The position numbers were made by a program, and so were the translations under genes. From positions 4,836,001-4,900,000 of the forward strand of contig JBANDB010000004.1 in the NCBI GenBank assembly GCA_037576215.1: DNA of 64,000 nt, written 5' to 3'. Shown one piece after another: positions 17,532-29,766 of this stretch (position 1 is the first letter of the stretch; every line of letters begins with the position of its first letter). The notes beneath the pieces were generated by a model. It was not told the origin of the DNA. It saw only the letters and a list, made by a program, of their open reading frames with translations, and searched no databases. Source of the stretch: Armillaria gallica. Lineage: Eukaryota; Basidiomycota; Agaricomycetes; Agaricales; Physalacriaceae.

Positions 17532-17559
17532 TACTATCCTTTCCTGTATGGAAGCAACG
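17532..17559 (+). repeat. Left terminal inverted repeat
   Basis: Begins TACTATCCTTTCCTGTATGG. It matches the reverse complement of 29739-29766 with one A/G difference. Confidence 0.8.
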
Positions 17560-17587
17560 GCGGAGGACCCCTTACGCTTACAAATAC

Positions 17588-17603
17588 TTTGGGTACCGGC
17601 AAC
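17588..17603 (+). repeat. Subterminal inverted repeat, left
   Basis: TTTGGGTACCGGCAAC is exactly repeated in inverse orientation at 29533-29548, about 190 bp inside the right end. Confidence 0.75.
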
Positions 17604-19268
17604 GCCCGGTTCCAGAACGTGAGCTGACTAAGCCCATTTTCGGCTATTTTGACGGCAAATCAATGTTAATTGCTTCAATTCTCGTTGATAGACTGTCCTA
17701 CCTACTCATATAGCTCCATATGAGTTCAAGTATATAGTAGTACTAATTCACCTGGAATAAAACTCATCTTCACTGTCATCCTGCCCTTCAATATCAACAT
17801 CTATGATCTCTTCTTGGCTGCTTTCAACCCTGGTCTCTGCTCCTTCATGTTCAGCCTCTACTGCCAAATTCCCTGCTGCTTCGTACTTGGCTATAGCTGT
17901 CTGGAGATGTCTGTACCTAGATTCTCGATCACCTCTGCCTTTGGCACCCGATTTAGCCTTTGGAATCTCCAATCCTGAACCATTTTTACCATTCTTTATA
18001 TGCCAATCCAACTGCAAATCCAATGCCGCTACTGTGAGGTATCCATTTGCACCACGCTGTATCTTGTATGCTTCCTCAAGTGCCTGAGAAGTCCGATAAG
18101 GATCACATCCATCAATGGCTTCTTCTGCACGTGCAATCCTGGCAGCACGGGTACGATCTTTGTCAGCGTTCTGGGAAGCAACATCCTTCATATGCTGAGC
18201 CATGGTATGTTTGATAGCACGATTGTTCCCAGAGCTATCCTGGTCATGGACAAGTTTCCGCAATGCACTACGCTCCTCAGGTTTGAGGGACTTCATGTGA
18301 CTGGAAGCTCCATTTTTCTTATACATTTGAAGAGCATTGAAGTAATTTAAGGACATATTTGGCCGGATACGAGCTGCCTGCCACCAGTTGCCAAATGCAC
18401 CTTCATTTAAGTCATTTGTTGATTCCATCCAGGCACTTTCAATTTGCTCAGTAGTTGCAGTGTCAATTGCTCCTCCTGCCAAGAATTCAGAAGTGAATCT
18501 TTCCCAAGTTTCTAGTGCTCCTGTACAGAATGAAACCAGTAAAGGAGATAGGTGAGGTAGCTGGGGCTTGCGCTGGAGAACAGCATATATAGCCTCTGGC
18601 ATCTCCCATAGTTTCCCATCCAGCGAGCCTGTTTCATATGACATGTCTGGGCTGAGGAGCAGGTCGGGATCAGCAATGATTTTACGCAGGTGGGATTTTA
18701 CTTTTTCATGCAGAGGGCCTAATTTAAGCATATTTGTTTCACTTCGAAGAGGACCACGTATTTCACACATATAAGGAACCCCAATAGCCTGGTAGTAGAT
18801 TGTGATGACTGCAAATTCATGTTGGGTTGCATTATCCTCGCATCCATATTTAACATTGCACTCCATATGGTTCAACATTCGGCTTGCTTTGTTTTGTTCA
18901 ACATAGCTCAAGAATTGGAGGATAAGATCAAGATATGTGATAATTATTGCACATGCCTCGGCATGAGATTGAAAGTGGGTATTGCTTGTATCAGGGAAAC
19001 AGAGTGTAAAACCCATCTCGAGATCCCAAAAATACCGGAGTGTATCTTGCTGACCATGCTTTCAGTCCTTGTGGCGAAATACAGCACCAGCTAGACTTGA
19101 GACCTTAATTGCCCCACCCTGTGTACGATCTTCTGCACGTTTTGCAGCTGCAGTCCCTGCTCCAAGATCAGCAGCTGCTGCATTGTCCCAATTGTACATT
19201 TTGATTGGGCCAGAAATGCCATTCTCCTCCCACCATCTTGACATATGAGTACATCCTCCTTTGAATGC

Positions 19269-19273
19269 ATTCA
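19269..19273. repeat. 5-bp target site duplication, left
   Basis: ATTCA immediately precedes TGTTACG of the 5' LTR and is repeated at 27709-27713. Removing one copy plus the element restores the interrupted reading frame exactly. Confidence 0.92.
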
Positions 19274-19299
19274 TGTTACGATTTATTCACTTTTTTCCT

Positions 19300-19314
19300 T
19301 TATCTTATCTTATC
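19300..19314 (-). promoter_or_regulatory. GATA-motif array in LTR U3
   Basis: The reverse strand reads GATAAGATAAGATAA, three head-to-tail GATAA motifs of the kind bound by fungal GATA factors. Present identically in the 3' LTR at 27345-27359. Confidence 0.45.
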
Positions 19315-19475
19315 TCTTACTCTGGACCAATCAGGCCGACATCTACAGGAGAACGTTCCCATGTTATCTCCCAAGTCTCCACGCTCTCGCTTCTCTATTG
19401 CGTGTGACGGCTCCAAGTCCTTGTACTTCGTTATCCACCACTTGAGGACACTTTATTATTAACCTTCACTTTCAG

Positions 19476-19521
19476 TATTTAAGTAGCTACCCACAACTCC
19501 TGTACGCCAGCCTCGAACTAA
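19476..19521 (+). promoter_or_regulatory. LTR promoter: TATA box and predicted RNA start with self-primer
   Basis: TATTTAAG at 19476 lies 33 nt upstream of AGCCTCGAACTAA (19509-19521). That distance fits a TATA-dependent start. The 13-mer is the exact complement of the primer-binding region, so a transcript starting here could prime its own reverse transcription. The start site is inferred, not shown. Confidence 0.65.
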
Positions 19522-19618
19522 CTTTAATCTATACTGAATCTATCGCTTAGTTTCTCGCTGCACAACTAAAGACTTAGCCGGATCGCCTATAAGAGACAAC
19601 GTCGGTGACTGCCTGAAC

Positions 19619-20929
19619 GTGAGACAGCCGGTGTTTGTCATTGATAGGAGTTCAGGTCTAATAATTAGTTCGAGGCTTCACCCTCTGCTCCTTAACCGGA
19701 GCCAACAGATGTCGATGACTCTCAAAATTCTACTATCTGCAGTCTACTTTGGAGTCGGACTAGCATTTTTCTCAGCCATGCTTATATTGGCTATTATACA
19801 TTATCAAAGGACCACTCGCCGAAGGTGCAACAGAGGAATCCGATACCCCCCACCACCCATAAACTATGTCCTCCCACAGCAGCCACTGCCAGCACACTTC
19901 TACCCACCCGTACCACCTAGGTTCGCCACCGTCAACCAGCAGCCTGGCAACCACGGGCAAGACGAGGAAGACGTTCCTGGGGAGGTGGAAATCGGCGTTC
20001 AAGAGAGAGGCGATGGAGATGCTACCAGAGAAGGAACCCCTCGTATCGAGTTATCTACCAATCCCCCATCATCTCACAGCTCCACCGGTGCTACCCCCCA
20101 TCCAGCAGCACGAAACGTTGCCACTGCCGCAGACTTGGCAAGGTACCTCATCCGACTCGGAGTGGGGGAAGCACGTGCAGGAGCATCCCCGGCCACAGGA
20201 CAACCTGCCAACAATGTTGATGGGGGTAGCAGGGCATCAGATATCGCCCCCGACCCCTACAAGATTCGCGTTGGTTCCACTTCCGAGCTCGATCTCGTCT
20301 GGGACAACCTCAATCTCCCCTACATGGCTTTCATCGACTACCACCCAAACCCCTATGCCGCCCCTCACTACTGGGATACCCCAGTCCGAGTCGCGACACG
20401 ATCTCCCACTCCACCAGCCCAGTCAGGACAGCCTTCGTCGACCGAGTTCCCCCCTCGAGGGATCCCGGAGACCTCGAACAGACTCGCTGTTCCCAGACGA
20501 AGGCGGGAGCCGCGGAGATCCACGATCGACATCGCGCAAGAGCTCGATTCGCAGTATCAAGATGATGCACAGGGACTCTCTCAGTACGACAGAGAGCGAA
20601 GGGAACGAGAGCGCGAGCGGGCAAGTGGGTTCAGGAGAGTTGATGAAGAATCGAGAAGGATTTCCCAAACCAACAGCAGGGGAGGAACCGTTTACCACAC
20701 CCCCAGCAGCGACACCGCCACAGAAAGATTCCCCTCGGCAGAGCACATCAATGGCATCATCGGATACGAGAGCCCATCTCCCTCACCAATTCCCACACCA
20801 GTCAACCCGAACACTCCCCCAGCCGACCACCCTGATAACCATAGCTCAGGCGCTGTACCTTCTCTCAACAGGCAAGCTAGTCCAAGTCCCCGCCGTCCTC
20901 CTCGCCGCAACCCTGGAGGAGCTCTTTGA
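19619..20929 (+). other. Long ORF overlapping gag in another frame
   Basis: A 436-codon open frame (frame of pol) overlaps the gag frame for over 1 kb. It starts inside the 5' LTR. It contains a hydrophobic segment at about residues 33-60 (LLSAVYFGVGLAFFSAMLIL) followed by a basic stretch and a proline- and arginine-rich tail. No stop has appeared here although the gag frame downstream has collected several. It could be a by-product of GC-rich, proline-rich gag coding or a true extra protein. I favour gag because its frame connects to capsid. Confidence 0.35.
19665..19677 (+). promoter_or_regulatory. Primer-binding site for self-priming
   Basis: TTAGTTCGAGGCT begins one base after the 5' LTR. 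It does not start with the TGG expected for a tRNA 3' end. Its reverse complement occurs exactly at 19509-19521 in the LTR. Confidence 0.7.
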
Positions 20930-22415
20930 TCACTTTGGGAATGAACTACTAGAGGACCAAGATTGGGCCCTGACGCCGGCAGGAAGGGATTACGCGCACT
21001 ACGGATACAGATATATATTGAATGAAGAAGCCGCCCATTTCGCCTGCATCGCCTACAACATGATCCATACAGACCAGCACGCTGAGGTACCCGCCAGGTA
21101 CCAGTGACCCCAGTTGGACCTACCACCGGTAGCCGACTCACCAGAACCAATGGATGATGAACCACCGGTACCTCCCCAATGAGCCGCAGTGCCTGAACAC
21201 CCAAGATGGGAACCAGGCTATGCCGCCACCTAGCCAAGCTATGCCTATCCCCGTGGGTATGGACCACCAGGCACCCAGGGGACCTCCTGACTCTTCGCCG
21301 CTGCCATGACTGGTAACGGTAATAGCGCAGGACCGTCAAACACCCCCCGGGTACCTGACCAACCCCCCAAACCACAGCCACCAAGTGGACTGCCGCCGCC
21401 TGGACCACCCGGACCCGGACTTCCTCATCGATGGGCACCCCCGCGCTATCCTCCGCCGCCAGGACCTCCCGACCCCCCAGCTCCATAGATCCTCGACCCA
21501 GGCAACCAAGGGCCCTGGTCTTCGCTAAAACTGGAGATGGTCAGGGTGCCCGAGAACTTCAACAGAGACTCCAACGACATCGCCCGATTCTTCTCCCAGT
21601 GCGACATGTATTTCTTGGTGTTCAATCAACACTTCTACTACCACCCTCACAAGGTCATCTTCTGCGCATCACGATTCGGCAAAGACGCACAAGTATGGTG
21701 GAAGTTATGCACGCGCGGACTAGGGAGAGACAAACACGGCTTCCAACTCTATCTGCCATACAAAGAATTCATTGACAAAGTCAGAAGGAGGTTTTGGAAG
21801 GACGCCAATGCTGAAATCAAGTTCGCCCAGTGGGAGGCGCTCCGACAGAGCCACTTCCCAGACGGCGACCTGTTCTTCCAACAATTCGAGTCGCTAGCCT
21901 TTGAGGCAGGGGTCCTAGGAACCGATATGATGATGGTGGCTCAAATCAAAAAGGCATGCAGGTCGTCGACCAAAGACATTATCTATGCGTCAGACATGGA
22001 CATCCCAGGCACATACTATGAGTGGAAACGACGGATACTCCGCATTGACCATAATTGGAGGACAAGGAAGGCAGAGCAACGCGGAGGGAAGGTAACGGAG
22101 TGGAAGCAGCAGGCGAAGACGAACACGACCCCAGTAGCAAAGGGGAACCAGCAACAGAGCAGTGTCCCGGAAAAGACGATGGGAACTGGCACAACATTCA
22201 GAGGGCAGGGAAAGCCCATGGACATCGATGCGGTGTGCGCCAAAACCAAGTGTTTTGGGTGCGGCCAGCTCAGGCACTTCAAACGGGACTGCCCTAAATG
22301 ACCCAAGACAAAAGAGGAACACCTTCAACGCGTAGCCTACTACTGGGATCATGTAGCAATGAACGAAAAGACGGATTCGAAGATCGAGGAGGTAAAAGAC
22401 AGCGCCAAGCAGTAA
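19866..22415 (+). pseudogene. gag: Chromovirus gag
   Basis: One frame runs from 19866 to a natural-looking TAA at 22413-22415. The N-terminal third is serine/proline-rich. A folded-looking block follows near 20810-21090 (TIAQALYLLSTGKLVQVPAV, LLEDQDWALTPAGRDYAHYG). Then comes a proline-rich linker and the capsid domain from about 21537 (PENFNRDSNDIARFFSQCDM). A CCHC zinc knuckle ends it (CFGCGQLRHFKRDC, spacing 2-4-4). Stops interrupt at 21105, 21180, 21231, 21288, 21486 and 22299: four TGA and two TAG, each one C-to-T step from CGA or CAG. Gag packages the element RNA. It cannot be made full length now. Confidence 0.85.
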
Positions 22416-25400
22416 ATGATTCGACTGACTCGGCAAAAGACTTAGTTTCATCCGGTACGCCCTTATCGCCTGCTAGCAAGGCTCATTGTACTTCTGTAGT
22501 TGAACAAACGCATTTGAATATACCACTTCGCGACTTCGCTACCGAGACCAAGACTAAGAAAGAATCAGCACAGGATGTCGGTACCGATGCACCGACTAAA
22601 CATTCGGCAAGTAACTCATTACGAGCGAAAGCATCGAATGAAAAGGCACCCACTATAGTGCTACCCGTCATAACAGCGCCCAAACCGCGACTGGATGGGG
22701 CAAGGGAGAAAGTGCTTAGCGCTCCCCTTGGAGAAGCGGCCCCTGGCAAGGGGAACACCGCAAACGAAGAGCTGAAGACACTCAAGCGGTTGACAGTGCC
22801 GCCATTGGCCACGGCACAAGCGAAGGTGATGACCGTCACTGGGCTGAAGGAGGAAGGATCTCCGAACACCATGCGCAGCGGACTGATGGTGCGGTCTGAC
22901 GATCAGCAGCCTTGCAAGAGTCCCAGGAGCGCGATCCAGCATCAAGATGATGGCTGGAACCAGGTCGGCAGAGGCCCTAGGCGGGAGCCGAACGACTCGC
23001 TAAGTCCGGAGGGAGCCGACCGGGCCGGTAAGTCTGTTCATTCGGCACAGGTCGAGTCCGCTGTCGCCTCGAGTGACGGCCCCAACGTCCAGACGAGCTT
23101 GCGGCAGTCCAACATCCCTCTAGGCGATCCCGACGAAGACCAGCGAGTAGCAAGAACTGTTGGATGCGCAACAGCCCCGACCAAGGCAGCCGAAGGACAG
23201 GAAGCCGCTAGCGCCCAGGCAGTGAAAAGGGGGCCTAAGGTACAGATGGAGGAGGTTCTGGATGACAAAGATGACATGAGTTTCCAACGCAGCCAGAAAA
23301 CTAATCAAAAACCCCCTGTAGCACCTGAGGAGACCCAGTCAATGGTAGCCGAACCATCAGGTTCCAGTGCGAAGACTGAGAAGGTCCCACATATGTGGCT
23401 GAAGCCATTCGAAGCGGAATGGACGTTACGCAGTATCAAGGAGGCGAAGACCGAATCAGAAGCGAAGGCGATCCTAAAAAACTGGATCCATAAAACGAGA
23501 GTTGAGGAGGTAGTCGACGAGATGATTGACGGCTTGAGGAAGGTCGAGCGCATCAATGCACTGGAGTGGATGAACGAGCTCTGCCAACCCCGATGCTATG
23601 TCTGTTGAGTAAGTGGAGAAGGGAAGGCCCTAACCACCGATATCCAGGTCGAGACCCCAGGAGGCTCCACCCGTATTGCCTCGTCGGCCCTGATTGACAG
23701 TGGCTGCACTAGCAGCGCCATCAGCCGAGCCTTCGTCAAAAAGCATAATCTTCCCTCATGCACGACAGCGGCACCCATCACCGTATATAACGCGGACGGA
23801 TCAAAGAACAGTGCGGGGAGTATCACCGCCTTTGCCCAACTTCGCATTACTATCGGGGATCACTCTGAAAACATCGATTTGGCCATTACCGACCTAAAGG
23901 ATTGCGACGTCTTCCTGGGACATGATTGGTTAGTCAGGCATAACCTGCTGATCAACTGGCAGACTGGAAAAATGATCTTCACCCGATGCCAGTGCCGTCA
24001 TACCCCGATTCCATTACCAGATGCAGACCCGTATGACAAATGGGATGAAGAGCTGGAGGAGGGCGATACTATCCTTGCAATAAACTTCGAGGAAGCTATT
24101 CGCATCAGGGCGATGCGGCACATAGCCAATGATCTGGCAGCCAAAGCAAACGCAGATAAAAGGACCAAGATGTTCGAAGAAATGGTTCCTGAGTGGTGTA
24201 GGGACTTCAAAGACTTATTCGACAAAGAAAGCTTTGATGACCTCCCAGAACCGAAACCATGGGACCATGCCATCGAACTCATCCCGAACGCAAATGCTAA
24301 CCTAGACTGCAAAGTCTACCCACTGAATCGTGAAGAGCAGGAAGAGCTGGACAAATTCTTGGATGAGAACCTAGCCAGCGGAAGGATACGACCTTCCAAG
24401 TCGCCTATGGCATCCCCATTCTTCTTTGTCAAAAAGAAAGACGGGAAGCTGAGACCTGTTCAGGATTATTGAAAGCTTAACGAAATGACAATCAAAAATC
24501 GTTACCCGCTTCCTCTGATTTCGGAACTCATGGATAAATTACGCGGCACCAAGTACTTCTCCAAGCTGGACGTTCAATGGGGGTATAATAATGTTCGCAT
24601 CAAGACAGGGGATGAGTGGAAGGCAGCCTTCAGAACCAACCGTGGCCTGTACGAGCCAACGGTAATGTTCTTCGGACTCACCAACTCACCCGCCACCTTC
24701 CAATGGATGATGAATGACATCTTTAAAGACCTCATCGCATCCGGAAAGGTTACCATTTACCTCGACAATATCCTCATCATGTCGAAAACCAGAGAAGAGC
24801 ACCGCCAGATCACACAAGAAGTACTGATGACCCTACGAAAACACAAACTATTCCTTAAAGCTGAAAAGTGCGAATTCGAAGTCCTCGAAACGGAATATCT
24901 AGGCGTCATCATTAGCAAAGGCAGTATCCATATGGATCCAGTCAAAATCAAGGGCATCCTTGACTGGCCGGTACCGACCAAGAAGAAGGAACTACAGTCG
25001 TTTTTGGGCTTCACAAACTTCTATCGACACTTCATAAAGAACTATAGCAAGATCGTGAAACCCATGACGCAGCTGACGGGCAACGAGACATGGAAGTGGG
25101 GTAAAGCTCAGCAAGATGCGTTCGAACAGCTGAAGAAGCAACTAGCCGAAGACGTCGTACTTGCTATACCAACGAACGAGGGGAAATTCAGAGTGGAAGC
25201 AGATGCTAGCAAAGGGGCCATCAGTGCTGTACTCTCTCAAGAGCAGGATGGCAAGTGGAGACCAGTTTCATTCCTATCCAAGTCTCTTTCCATTACCGAG
25301 CATAACTACGAGATCTACGACAAGGAACTTCTGGCCATCATGCTCGCGCTAGAGGAGTGGAGGCACTACCTGATGGGTGCGCACCAGGATTTCGAGATCT

Positions 25401-27283
25401 GGACAGATCATCAGAATCTTCAATATTTCCAAAAACCCCAGAAGGTGAACTGCCACCAAGCCCGATGGATTACCGAGTTGGCAGAATATCATTTCACCCT
25501 TCATCATAAAGCTGGAACAGCCAACAAGAAGGCTGACCTTCTCTCCCACCGCACAGATCATGACCAGGGACAGGACGACAATGACCAAGTCATCATGTTA
25601 TCCCCCGAGCATTTCCGAGCAATGATCATGCCGACGCTCGAAGAAACTCACGAGAAGGTGCAAGCAGCAACCCAAAAGGCTCACCTCTGGGACCCCGCCG
25701 TTACCGGCTCCATCGACCATGACCATGGCATGAGAGTGAAGGATAGGCTAGTTTGGTATGACGGCAGGATCTACATTCCACGAGACCATGTGTTACGAGG
25801 AGAAGTCATTGCCTGATCCCATGATCACATCACCGCTGGGCATCCAGGTATCGAGAAAACCAAAGAACTTATGCTACGAGAGTTCTGGTGGCCAAAGATA
25901 AAGAAGGATGTCGAAGCCTATGTGCGAGGTTGCGAAACTTGCCAACGAACAAAAGGCAGCACTCAAGCAAAGGCAGCGCCCCTTCACCCCAACGAAATAC
26001 CCTCTCGCCCGTGGACTCACATCTCGGTAGACATGGTGACGGGGTTGCCCAAAAGCAATGGTCACGACGCCATCCTAGTAATCGTCGATCGCTTTTCAAA
26101 AGAAATCATCCCAGTTGCATGTTCCACTGAGTTATCATCGGAAGGATGGGCGAAGATTTTACATGACAAGGTGTACGCCAAACATGGCATGCCTCAAGTC
26201 GTCATCTCAGATCGAGGAACGGTGTTTGTTTCCAAATTCATGAAAGATCTCTATGACCTTCTTCAGATCAAAGGCAACCCCTCAACAGCCTATCACCCAC
26301 AGACGGATGGACAGACGGAGAGAGTTAATCAAGAAATTGAGAAATACCTCCGCATGTTCGTCAACCACCTCCAAACCGATTGGGCAGAATGGCTCTCACT
26401 CACCACATTCACTCATAACAATCGAGTACACTCCTCTACCGGCAAAAGTCCCTTCGAAGTCAACTACGGCTATAACCCTGATGTATTACCAGGAGCCAAA
26501 ACTACCGCGCCATTCCATACCCCCGCCTCAGGCACCTTCGTCTCGAAAATGCAGGAAATTCATGCAACCGCCAAGCAATCCCTCGAGAAGGCTGCATCGC
26601 AAATGAAAGCACAATATGACAAATCAAAGTGCCCAGCCATCGAGTATAAAGTAGGCGACAAGGTGTGGCTCGACACATCCAATCTACACCTTCCCCGGCC
26701 AAAAAAGAAACTCAACGATAGACGAACAGGCCCCTTTGAGATCAAAAACAAGAAGGGCGCCTCGGCATACACCCTTGCTTTACCAGCCAACTGGAAGATC
26801 CACCCGACCTTTAACAAATCGCTGCTCACTCCATACACTCCTCCCGGATTCCCTAATCAAGAACAACCGCCTCCTCCACCACCAGACCTTATAGATGGCG
26901 AAGAACTCTACGAAGTTGAAAAAGTCCTAGACATCAGACACCGACGAATATGAGGGAGAAGAGGGGAACCTCCAAGAACGGCGACAGACTATTTCGTCAA
27001 ATGGAAGGGCTATGGACCCGAATCCAACAGTTGAGTACGGGAAGGCGACATGGAAGCAGACGAACTTATCGAAGAGTTCCTTGCTGAACATGTCGACAAC
27101 GTCAGCACCGAACGATATCAACCCGACTGGCAATCCTACACTGACAAAGCAACAGGGGAAAAAGTGTGGTATGACCAGAACGAACTCTGGGATCTGCTGG
27201 GAGCACACGACGACCCATCCATGGACACAAGGGGGCTGAATGAACCGATCAAGATACCAAGACTTTGCCTAGGAGGGACTTAA
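22298..27283 (+). pseudogene. pol: Chromovirus pol: protease, RT, RNase H, integrase, chromodomain
   Basis: A single frame in -1 register to gag, overlapping its end by 118 nt. A ~430-residue low-complexity leader precedes an aspartic protease (DSG at 23696-23704). RT begins near 24300 (LPEPKPWDHAIELIPNA) and its catalytic box reads YLDN at 24758-24769 instead of YxDD. RNase H starts around FRVEADASKGAISAVLSQ. Integrase has the HHCC finger (HITAGHPG to CETCQRTKG) and the DDE residues SVDMVTG, VISDRGT and TERVNQEIE. A chromodomain follows the last stops (YFVKWKGYGPESN, EADELIEEFL). Five stops, all TGA (23606, 24470, 25814, 26951, 27032), break it. RT inactivation fits GAT to AAT at a CpG. The product would copy and insert the element. 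Confidence 0.93.
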
Positions 27284-27307
27284 CAGCAGTCGGGACACCT
27301 GCCTTAA

Positions 27308-27318
27308 TGAGGGGGTAA
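27308..27318 (+). other. Polypurine tract
   Basis: TGAGGGGGTAA abuts the 3' LTR start TGTTACG, the usual place for the plus-strand primer. Confidence 0.75.
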
Positions 27319-27708
27319 TGTTACGATTTATTCACTTTTTTCCTTTATCTTATCTTATCTCTTACTCCGGACCAATCGGGCCAACATCTACAGGAGAACG
27401 TTCCCATGTTATCTCCCAAGTCTCCACGCTCTCGCTTCTCTATTGCATGTGACGGCTCCAAGTCCTTGTACTTCGTTATCCACCACTTGAGGACACTTTA
27501 TTATTAACCTTCACTTTTGGTATTTAAGTAGCTACCCACGACTCCTGTACGCCAGCCTCGAACTAACTTTAATCTATACTGAATCTATCGCTTAATTTCT
27601 CGCTGCACAACTAAAGACTTAGCCAGATCGCCTATAAGAGACAACGTCGGTGACTGCCCGAACACGAGACAGCCGGTGTTTGTCATTGATAGGAGTTCAG
27701 GTCTAATA
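27319..27708 (+). repeat. 3' LTR (390 bp)
   Basis: Same length and ends as the 5' LTR, 97% identical, preceded by the purine tract. Confidence 0.95.
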
Positions 27709-27713
27709 ATTCA
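27709..27713. repeat. 5-bp target site duplication, right
   Basis: ATTCA directly follows the 3' LTR and equals 19269-19273. Confidence 0.92.
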
Positions 27714-29110
27714 TCTCTTTATGCATACAGCATCCAGCCCAGATCAAGAGATCAATATTCTTCTTTTGACTGTCATCTAATTTCGCAAATTCAGCTTCTC
27801 CCAGTTCAAAGGCAAATCTGTGAAAGGCTTCATCATGGTGTGTTTTCCTTTGATTCTGGGAAAGATTTTCCCAGTTTGCTATTCCACCTGCATTGATAAT
27901 AGCCTCCTGTGACACCTTGAATAGAATATCAAGAAGCTCATGTGGTGTTGACTTTAGAATCGTTTCCTCCCCATGCTTCTCACGTTTGCATCTCTGCTTC
28001 CATGTTTGCAAAAGCCGAAACAGCTTCTTCTGGTCCTCTGCATGATCTGTATGCATTCCAGTGACTGTGATCCAGAAATCTCTGGCATCTTCTCCACTTT
28101 GACAGCGAGGGCTATGCTTATAAATACTGTACAGATCATCAACTAGATCTACCCATCTCTCGAGCTGAGTTTTACTTGTATGATTGACTGCCATTTGAAT
28201 TCCAAGAAAAAACTGTATCTTGTGGTTATTCTCATCAATAACAGTTGCATGATGAGATTCCAAATTGTTGTTTTTGTGAGTGGTACCATCACCACTTATT
28301 GTTAGCCCTGGGATGAAAGATGAGTATAACTATTTATTGCATAGGCCATTAATATGATATACCTTTTGCATTTTTTATACATTGAACAACTTGCATCTTT
28401 GCTGCAGCCCCTCCCTCCTGTACAATCCGCTTCATACTCTGATCTGAAACACTCCCTTCAACAGGGACTCCAAGGTGATTGGCCATTCTATTCAGAACAC
28501 TAAGAATGCGCTCAGGATTGACTCCATCTTCAGCAATGAGATCATTGATTAATGAGCGTGTGTCATCAGGAATAATACCCTTGTTCTTCAAGTGGAGAGA
28601 AGGAACATCAACAATGGCAGTCTTTGTAGCATTCGCAATGCGATTCGGAACCCGTTTGATTTTTGCCTTTAGATTGTGAAGCTGCTTCCTATCCTCCACT
28701 CTCTCCTCTGCCTGAAGAGTCATCTTGGACATCATGACCTCAGATTCCTTCACTAGATGGGCAATCTCATCCTCCAAATCTCCAATGTATGTAGCCTTCT
28801 TGCCCAAATCTTCTGCTTGTGTCTCCACCCTTTTCTGACTGCGTTTGAGCTTCTTCTGAAGACCATATAGGCGCCATTGGTAATTCTCGGCACGTTTACA
28901 TGCCTGGGAAAGTTCTGTCAGGTCCAACGGACCTAGATTCTCCTGTCCCGATAGCATGGGTCCATCCACATGTGCTGATGTTTCATCACAAGTGTGATGG
29001 GCAGCATTGATCTTTCCAAATTGGGATTTTTGCTGTGCAGACCGACGTTTGGTGTTACCAGAGTATCTAAGGAAGTTAGGACGATGCCCCATGATGTGTT
29101 CCGTGTGCTT

Positions 29111-29150
29111 GAAAGGTGCGGAAAGGTGTGGAAAGGTGCAAAAAGGTGCA
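29111..29150 (+). repeat. Four 10-bp tandem repeats upstream of the transposase-like gene
   Basis: Units GAAAGGTGCG, GAAAGGTGTG, GAAAGGTGCA and AAAAGGTGCA follow one another exactly, 18-58 bp upstream of the putative ATG at 29092. They could be a promoter element or binding sites for the element's own protein. Confidence 0.75.
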
Positions 29151-29283
29151 AATAGCTGTGTGACGCGTTTGTTTGGTTATGTTTGCAAAGCCTTCGGACT
29201 GCTCATCCAAATGCACCTTGTACAGGCTTCCACAGCCCTTGTATCACTTCGAAAAAATTACAGTATATCATTTTAAAATAGAA

Positions 29284-29396
29284 TACATGTATTCTTCGAG
29301 GCACTTTTTGAAAAAAAGCATTTTTAATGCCATAAACGTGCTGAAACTATGGTAAAACGAGGTCTAAAAAATAATTTGCCTCGAAGAATACATGTA
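29284..29396. mobile_element. 113-bp MITE-like element
   Basis: A perfect 20-bp inverted repeat, TACATGTATTCTTCGAGGCA, bounds 73 bp of AT-rich DNA. The outermost TA on each side fits a TA target duplication as in Tc1/mariner-type MITEs. It is nested in the right arm of the DNA transposon, outside the coding exons. Confidence 0.7.
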
Positions 29397-29532
29397 AAAT
29401 AATGTCCTGAGTAAAATGTTCCTGCAAAAGTTTCCGTGAATCTTCTTCCTTCGACCTGCAGTAGGTGCATCCATAAAACTCCCATATTTCGGGCCGTGAT
29501 CGAGATCGCTCGGAGCGCGAATTTTGGCGGGG

Positions 29533-29548
29533 GTTGCCGGTACCCAAA
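29533..29548 (-). repeat. Subterminal inverted repeat, right
   Basis: Reverse complement TTTGGGTACCGGCAAC equals the left copy. Confidence 0.75.
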
Positions 29549-29738
29549 TACTTCCAGCATATGCAACGAGGGGTGCTTTAGGCCTTATGTTGCCTAAATC
29601 CCGCAACATTTTGCCCCGCAGGGAGCAAATTTTTACTACTTTTGGGCCTTATTTGATTCCTTCGTAAGCAACAACCCCCTCCTTATGCCTTACGAAGGTT
29701 CAAAATAGGCAACGCAACCGACCCCCCCTCACGCCTTA

Positions 29739-29766
29739 CGTTGCTTCCATACAGGAAAGGACAGTA
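29739..29766 (-). repeat. Right terminal inverted repeat
   Basis: On the reverse strand it begins TACTGTCCTTTCCTGTATGG, one base different from the left TIR. A palindromic CAGTTAACTG lies just outside. Confidence 0.8.

Follow-up and report, generated by a model that had tools for sequence, protein, structure and literature searches.

A TGGG..CCCA transposon nested in an unrelated miniature element of Armillaria gallica and its predicted transposase

A 64,000-nt stretch of the Armillaria gallica contig JBANDB010000004.1 (positions 4,836,001 to 4,900,000, forward strand; hereafter, the window) contains a large two-exon gene enclosed by two pairs of inverted repeats, one within the other. This arrangement raises the question of which pair bounds the mobile element carrying the gene, and whether the encoded protein, which a first-pass annotation could place in no named transposase family, is the transposase of that element. 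We conclude that the gene very probably encodes the transposase of a cut-and-paste transposon of ~3.5 kb with terminal inverted repeats (TIRs) and 7-bp target duplications, later nested and broken. This reading is built on element boundaries, an empty site, target duplications, repeated copies, conserved residues and a predicted fold. The genome searched comprised 86 Mb in 28 contigs.

Element boundaries and nesting

Repeat comparison within the window confirmed the 28-nt inverted pair reported by the first-pass annotation (17532-17559/29739-29766, 27/28 identical) and revealed an inner pair of 21 nt (17588-17608/29528-29548, 20/21 identical). The annotation had rightly noted this second repeat, but its placement as subterminal was mistaken, as it is the TIR of the transposon itself. 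When the C-terminal half of the protein was used as a query, 29 genome matches were obtained, and six gene loci (L068-L073) were fetched. Alignment of L068-L072 with the window copy starts at 29546 (29539 for L072) and stops at 17590-17599, with nothing beyond. Since homology is confined between the inner repeats, the inner pair, and not the 28-nt pair as had been proposed, bounds the transposon of the gene. The sixth locus, L073, represents a diverged subfamily (51% identity) that is alignable in coding parts only. The locus is laid out as follows, features without a stated strand being unstranded.

17532..17589: left part of the outer miniature inverted-repeat transposable element (MITE), holding the 28-nt TIR 17532-17559 and ending with one copy of the 7-bp duplication
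17583..17589: 7-bp target duplication AATACTT, left copy
17590..29546, minus strand: protein-coding transposon TGGG..CCCA, 11,957 bp, or ~3.5 kb without the retrotransposon
17590..17608: true TIR, gene 3' side
17623..17632: GCTGACTAAG box, lying 34-43 nt inside the transposon's 3' end
17748..19273, minus strand: rest of exon 2, with the last Glu (18402-18404), an in-frame TGA (19062-19064) and the stop (17748-17750)
19274..27708, plus strand: Gypsy-type long terminal repeat (LTR) retrotransposon, with target copies ATTCA at 19269-19273 and 27709-27713
27709..28307, minus strand: first part of exon 2, with the first Asp (28288-28290), the second Asp (28045-28047) and CxxH (27721-27732)
28308..28362, minus strand: intron, 55 bp, GT..AG
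28363..29092, minus strand: exon 1, coiled coil and helix-turn-helix (HTH)-like domain
29284..29396: leader inverted repeat, 20-nt arms 29284-29303 and 29377-29396, perfect in the window
29528..29546: true TIR, gene 5' side
29547..29553: 7-bp target duplication AATACTT, right copy
29547..29766: right part of the outer MITE, starting with the other duplication copy, TIR 29739-29766

The possibility, raised in the annotation, that the 28-nt pair is unique to the window did not hold: the TIR has 33 genome matches (reversed control, 0). From 30 fetched TIR loci (L038-L067), 15 MITE copies of 225-276 bp, too small for the gene, were extracted, and 14 of them are unsplit at the insertion point of the window. 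AAATACTTCCAG is read exactly at this point in nine of the 15, and five (L042, L051, L060, L056 and L058) show the sequence with base differences or in a reversed alignment; L049 has a deletion there. These uninterrupted copies, together with the duplicated AATACTT of the window (site order AATACTT, TGGG..CCCA, AATACTT), establish which site was empty, that 7 bp were duplicated and in which order the elements were nested. The inner transposon thus sits inside the outer MITE, and the 28-nt TIR is a property of that MITE, unrelated to the inner transposon. TA is present at both ends of all 15 MITEs, either as a target duplication or as part of the TIR. As for an autonomous partner of the MITE, the genome search with the 28-nt TIR returned short pairs and the window pair, and no other gene-sized unit.

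Exact 7-bp duplications flank seven of the 11 gene copies (window, L068, L071, L072, L074, L076 and L077), those of L074, L076 and L077 having come from an end search without an assumed TIR sequence, as well as 15 of 20 further end pairs. This bears out the earlier proposal of a TIR-bounded transposon that encodes the protein and makes target duplications of constant length. TGGG occurs in all copies whose ends were located. For the left end (gene 5' side), 53 genome matches were found, and for the right end, 28, against none for the controls. End pairing yielded gene-bearing units of ~3.5 kb, 16 units without the gene that measure 622-793 bp (760 bp exactly in six), and two more gene-less units of 1284 bp and 4626 bp; the short gene-less units follow the pattern expected of internally deleted derivatives. 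The proteins of L074 and L076 are 35% and 37% identical to the window protein, and the ends of these copies start TGGGGAGC.GCAA or similar.

The gene, its predicted protein and conserved sites

The two-exon structure given by the annotation was confirmed; the gene lies on the minus strand (ATG 29092, 55-bp GT..AG intron 28308-28362, stop 17748) and is interrupted by a retrotransposon. The window gene is not intact, since besides this insertion it has one in-frame TGA, immediately upstream of 19061. In L072 both exons are open, and the gene is the sole long one within the ~3.5-kb unit.

The predicted protein model contains the RNase H/DDE core for which the annotation had suggested looking; a large helical insertion is present in it, and a CxxH motif follows the second Asp. 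The RNase H fold in the model is accompanied by conservation of three acidic residues, and the candidate catalytic residues are D223, D304, H412 and E707 in P0009 numbering. Outside CxxH, no Cys pair was found among the conserved alignment columns. A Foldseek search with the model gave Hermes (hAT) as the best structural match, with rows of the IS256-type transposase ISCth4 right behind; RAG1 was listed at E 0.49, and absence from such lists excludes nothing. Sequence searches returned no transposase from the PDB and nothing relevant from NCBIfam (three proteins). In P0001, P0002 and the window pieces, a Pfam search at E<=10 detected no transposase domain. A Pfam scan of 54 members gave 58 families at E<=1 (best 0.0011), and the 25 of these 58 that were listed included no transposase domain save one Mos1 HTH match (E 0.041). 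The hAT dimerisation domain PF05699 or DUF659 (E<=10) and the KDZ domain PF18758 were absent from the window pieces, P0001 and P0002, and from the 25 listed families. As a control, the same Pfam library finds decayed hAT and KDZ copies of the host genome (KDZ E 2.5e-40); the 86 hAT matches, and the KDZ matches among those listed, are located elsewhere in the genome. The statement that the protein falls in no named family stands in that no Pfam transposase catalytic family was seen. The genome also has 169 KDZ matches alongside the 86 hAT-dimerisation matches, several DNA transposon groups being co-resident.

The family is widespread in mushrooms, and among named proteins the nearest come from Armillaria, at 74-92% identity, the 92% match spanning one third of the query. 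Since every named homologue among the matches listed is annotated as hypothetical or uncharacterized, and none has a Pfam domain, repeat annotation probably misses the family and mushroom gene counts probably include its members. The C-terminal half found no relative in the viral contigs searched.

Two noncoding features recur. The window and six close copies share a leader inverted repeat whose arms lie ~150 and ~245 nt inside the left end, and in several of these copies a change in one arm is matched by a change in the other. When compared with eight single-base shuffles per copy in five copies, the arms of L073 (reverse strand near 1434-1540), different in sequence and similar in position, paired at 18/18 (shuffles <=14), and those of L074 at 15/18 (shuffles <=13). 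In all five copies compared (L071, L072, L073, L074 and L076), the distance of the GCTGACTAAG box from the 3' end is a constant 34 nt, and the box is kept down to 35% protein identity. Both features look like candidate binding or regulatory sites.

The insertion at 19274-27708 was assigned to the Gypsy type from its open reading frame content; its LTR repeat measures 394 bp with 12 mismatches, and at least 40 genome matches are related to it (40 of 437 candidates scored). Its pol region (23609-26953) consists of three abutting open stretches, and this copy appears decayed as well. In five of eight aligned rows, changes from the majority sequence are at least 1.5 times as often C>T or G>A as the reverse; the skewed rows, partly at CpG, are L068, L069, L070, L071 and L077. 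L077 has 96 such changes against 17 reverse, 54 of the 96 at CpG, the two window parts 36 against 27 and 24 against 22, and L072, with its exons open, 120 against 132. This skew fits CpG-directed decay.

Weighing of the readings

In the reading that we favor, the transposase would be built like Hermes around a DDE RNase H core, including the large helical insertion and CxxH, and its N-terminal coiled coil and HTH-like domain would probably dimerise it and bind the ends. Cleavage would take place at both termini, which the enzyme would then join to the target over a 7-bp stagger; it may also mobilise the short internally deleted copies. The window copy inserted into an unrelated MITE and was afterwards broken by the Gypsy-type insertion and the stop codon.

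Several observations weigh against this account. The exact duplication is absent in four of the 11 gene copies: that of L070 matches at 6/7; L069 has TTAAACA on both sides, with the right copy offset by two extra bases, and is counted in the tally of 23 duplications in which A/T occupies position 2 in 21 and position 6 in 20; and a search free of TIR assumptions found no duplication at L073 or L075 and no ends at L075. L073 has inverted ends of the TGGGAGG type, yet its flanks are unlike. The TIR match of L076 is weak (9/14) and one among several candidates, four of the 20 further end pairs fail outright and one matches at 6/7, and many of the 53 left ends are without a partner at the mismatch limit. 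The leader arms of L072 (15/18) were equalled by one shuffle, and those of L076 (12/18) were no better than shuffles, several being equal. The N-terminal domain had no significant Foldseek match. The alignments used 83 of 122 proteins (A1), 54 of 239 (A2) and 26 of 120 listed (A4), TIR linkage was examined in one genome only, and the transposase activity is deduced here from sequence and a predicted fold.

We consider the odds evenly balanced that the family constitutes an unnamed, superfamily-level CxxH-type DDE lineage across Agaricomycetes. Its hallmarks would be termini of the form TGGG..CCCA, 7-bp duplications in which positions 2 and 6 are A/T, an N terminus combining a coiled coil with an HTH-like domain, and, as noncoding marks, the GCTGACTAAG box and the leader repeat. 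The idea of an undescribed group agrees with the literature searched, in which no description of the element was found, Repbase and Dfam consensus sequences not having been compared. The leader repeat keeps its place while its sequence is swapped between subfamilies, which in such a lineage would look as if transposase and site had coevolved. Because its ends and the length of its duplications are defined, the family can be counted and tested, and it would enlarge the CxxH transposases (Hermes, P, IS256) by one branch. The nesting also cautions that TIRs on either side of a gene may belong to another element.

That the family is a remote branch within hAT proper, its duplications measuring 7 bp rather than 8 bp, is possible at a distinctly lower likelihood. 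Hermes tops the structural matches, the large helical insertion and CxxH are shared together with the RNase H core, and both catalytic Asp residues fall in register in the hAT profile comparison; yet this hhalign comparison with 26 fungal hATs was not significant (probability 0.8%, E 0.069), and no Pfam hAT domain was seen in the window pieces, P0001 and P0002 or among the families listed for the 54 members, though the hAT copies of the genome are recognised. The A/T at duplication positions 2 and 6 recalls the hAT target preference nTnnnnAn, whereas hAT ends follow the pattern YARNG rather than TGGG, and hAT transposases carry a BED finger rather than an N-terminal coiled coil and HTH-like domain. 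Target duplications of hATs are 8 bp, but the hAT7 families of rusts (PMC12730594) share the 7 bp of the TGGG transposon.

Another named superfamily outside Pfam, or a Repbase entry under some name, seems rather unlikely; Dada, with its mushroom host and duplication length, points in this direction, and the features of Dada and Kyakuja set out below argue against it. That the protein is a passenger gene and not the transposase is very improbable: its activity is deduced, and many short copies lack the gene, but it is the only long gene of the ~3.5-kb unit, has a transposase-like core, and in subfamilies at 35-37% identity still occurs jointly with TGGG ends and 7-bp duplications. The notion that the 28-nt TIRs, which do enclose the gene, are the ends of the protein-coding transposon, with the shorter repeat subterminal, is practically untenable, being ruled out by the homology limits of the gene copies and by the gene-less, almost always uninterrupted MITEs.

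Comparison with known transposase groups

According to PMC3706591, an RNase H core with a helical insertion and CxxH is common to hAT, P, Kolobok, MuDR and IS256, and the helical insertion of CxxH transposases is thought to shape their mechanism (PMC7780238). ISCth4 resembles the TGGG transposase in all three features, but is a bacterial copy-out/paste-in system with a small insertion (PMC7780238). KDZ elements share Agaricomycete hosts, and Kyakuja also the 7-bp duplications, yet the KDZ Pfam model matches the KDZ copies of the genome and not the TGGG proteins. In Kojima 2025 (PMC12730594), Kyakuja is described with CA..TG ends and no TIRs, in contrast to the TGGG..CCCA TIRs, and Dileera and Zisupton with 8-bp duplications. 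Dada, a member of the CxxH/DxxH group, is likewise known from a mushroom, Laccaria (there with an inserted exonuclease), and produces 6-7-bp duplications; as described in PMC3706591, it has no TIRs, targets small RNA genes and carries CCCC and CCHC zinc fingers, whereas the TGGG transposon has TIRs, varied targets (judged from the duplications) and no conserved extra Cys. The transposon thus probably works like hAT, yet it departs from hAT, KDZ and Dada in features that were tested.
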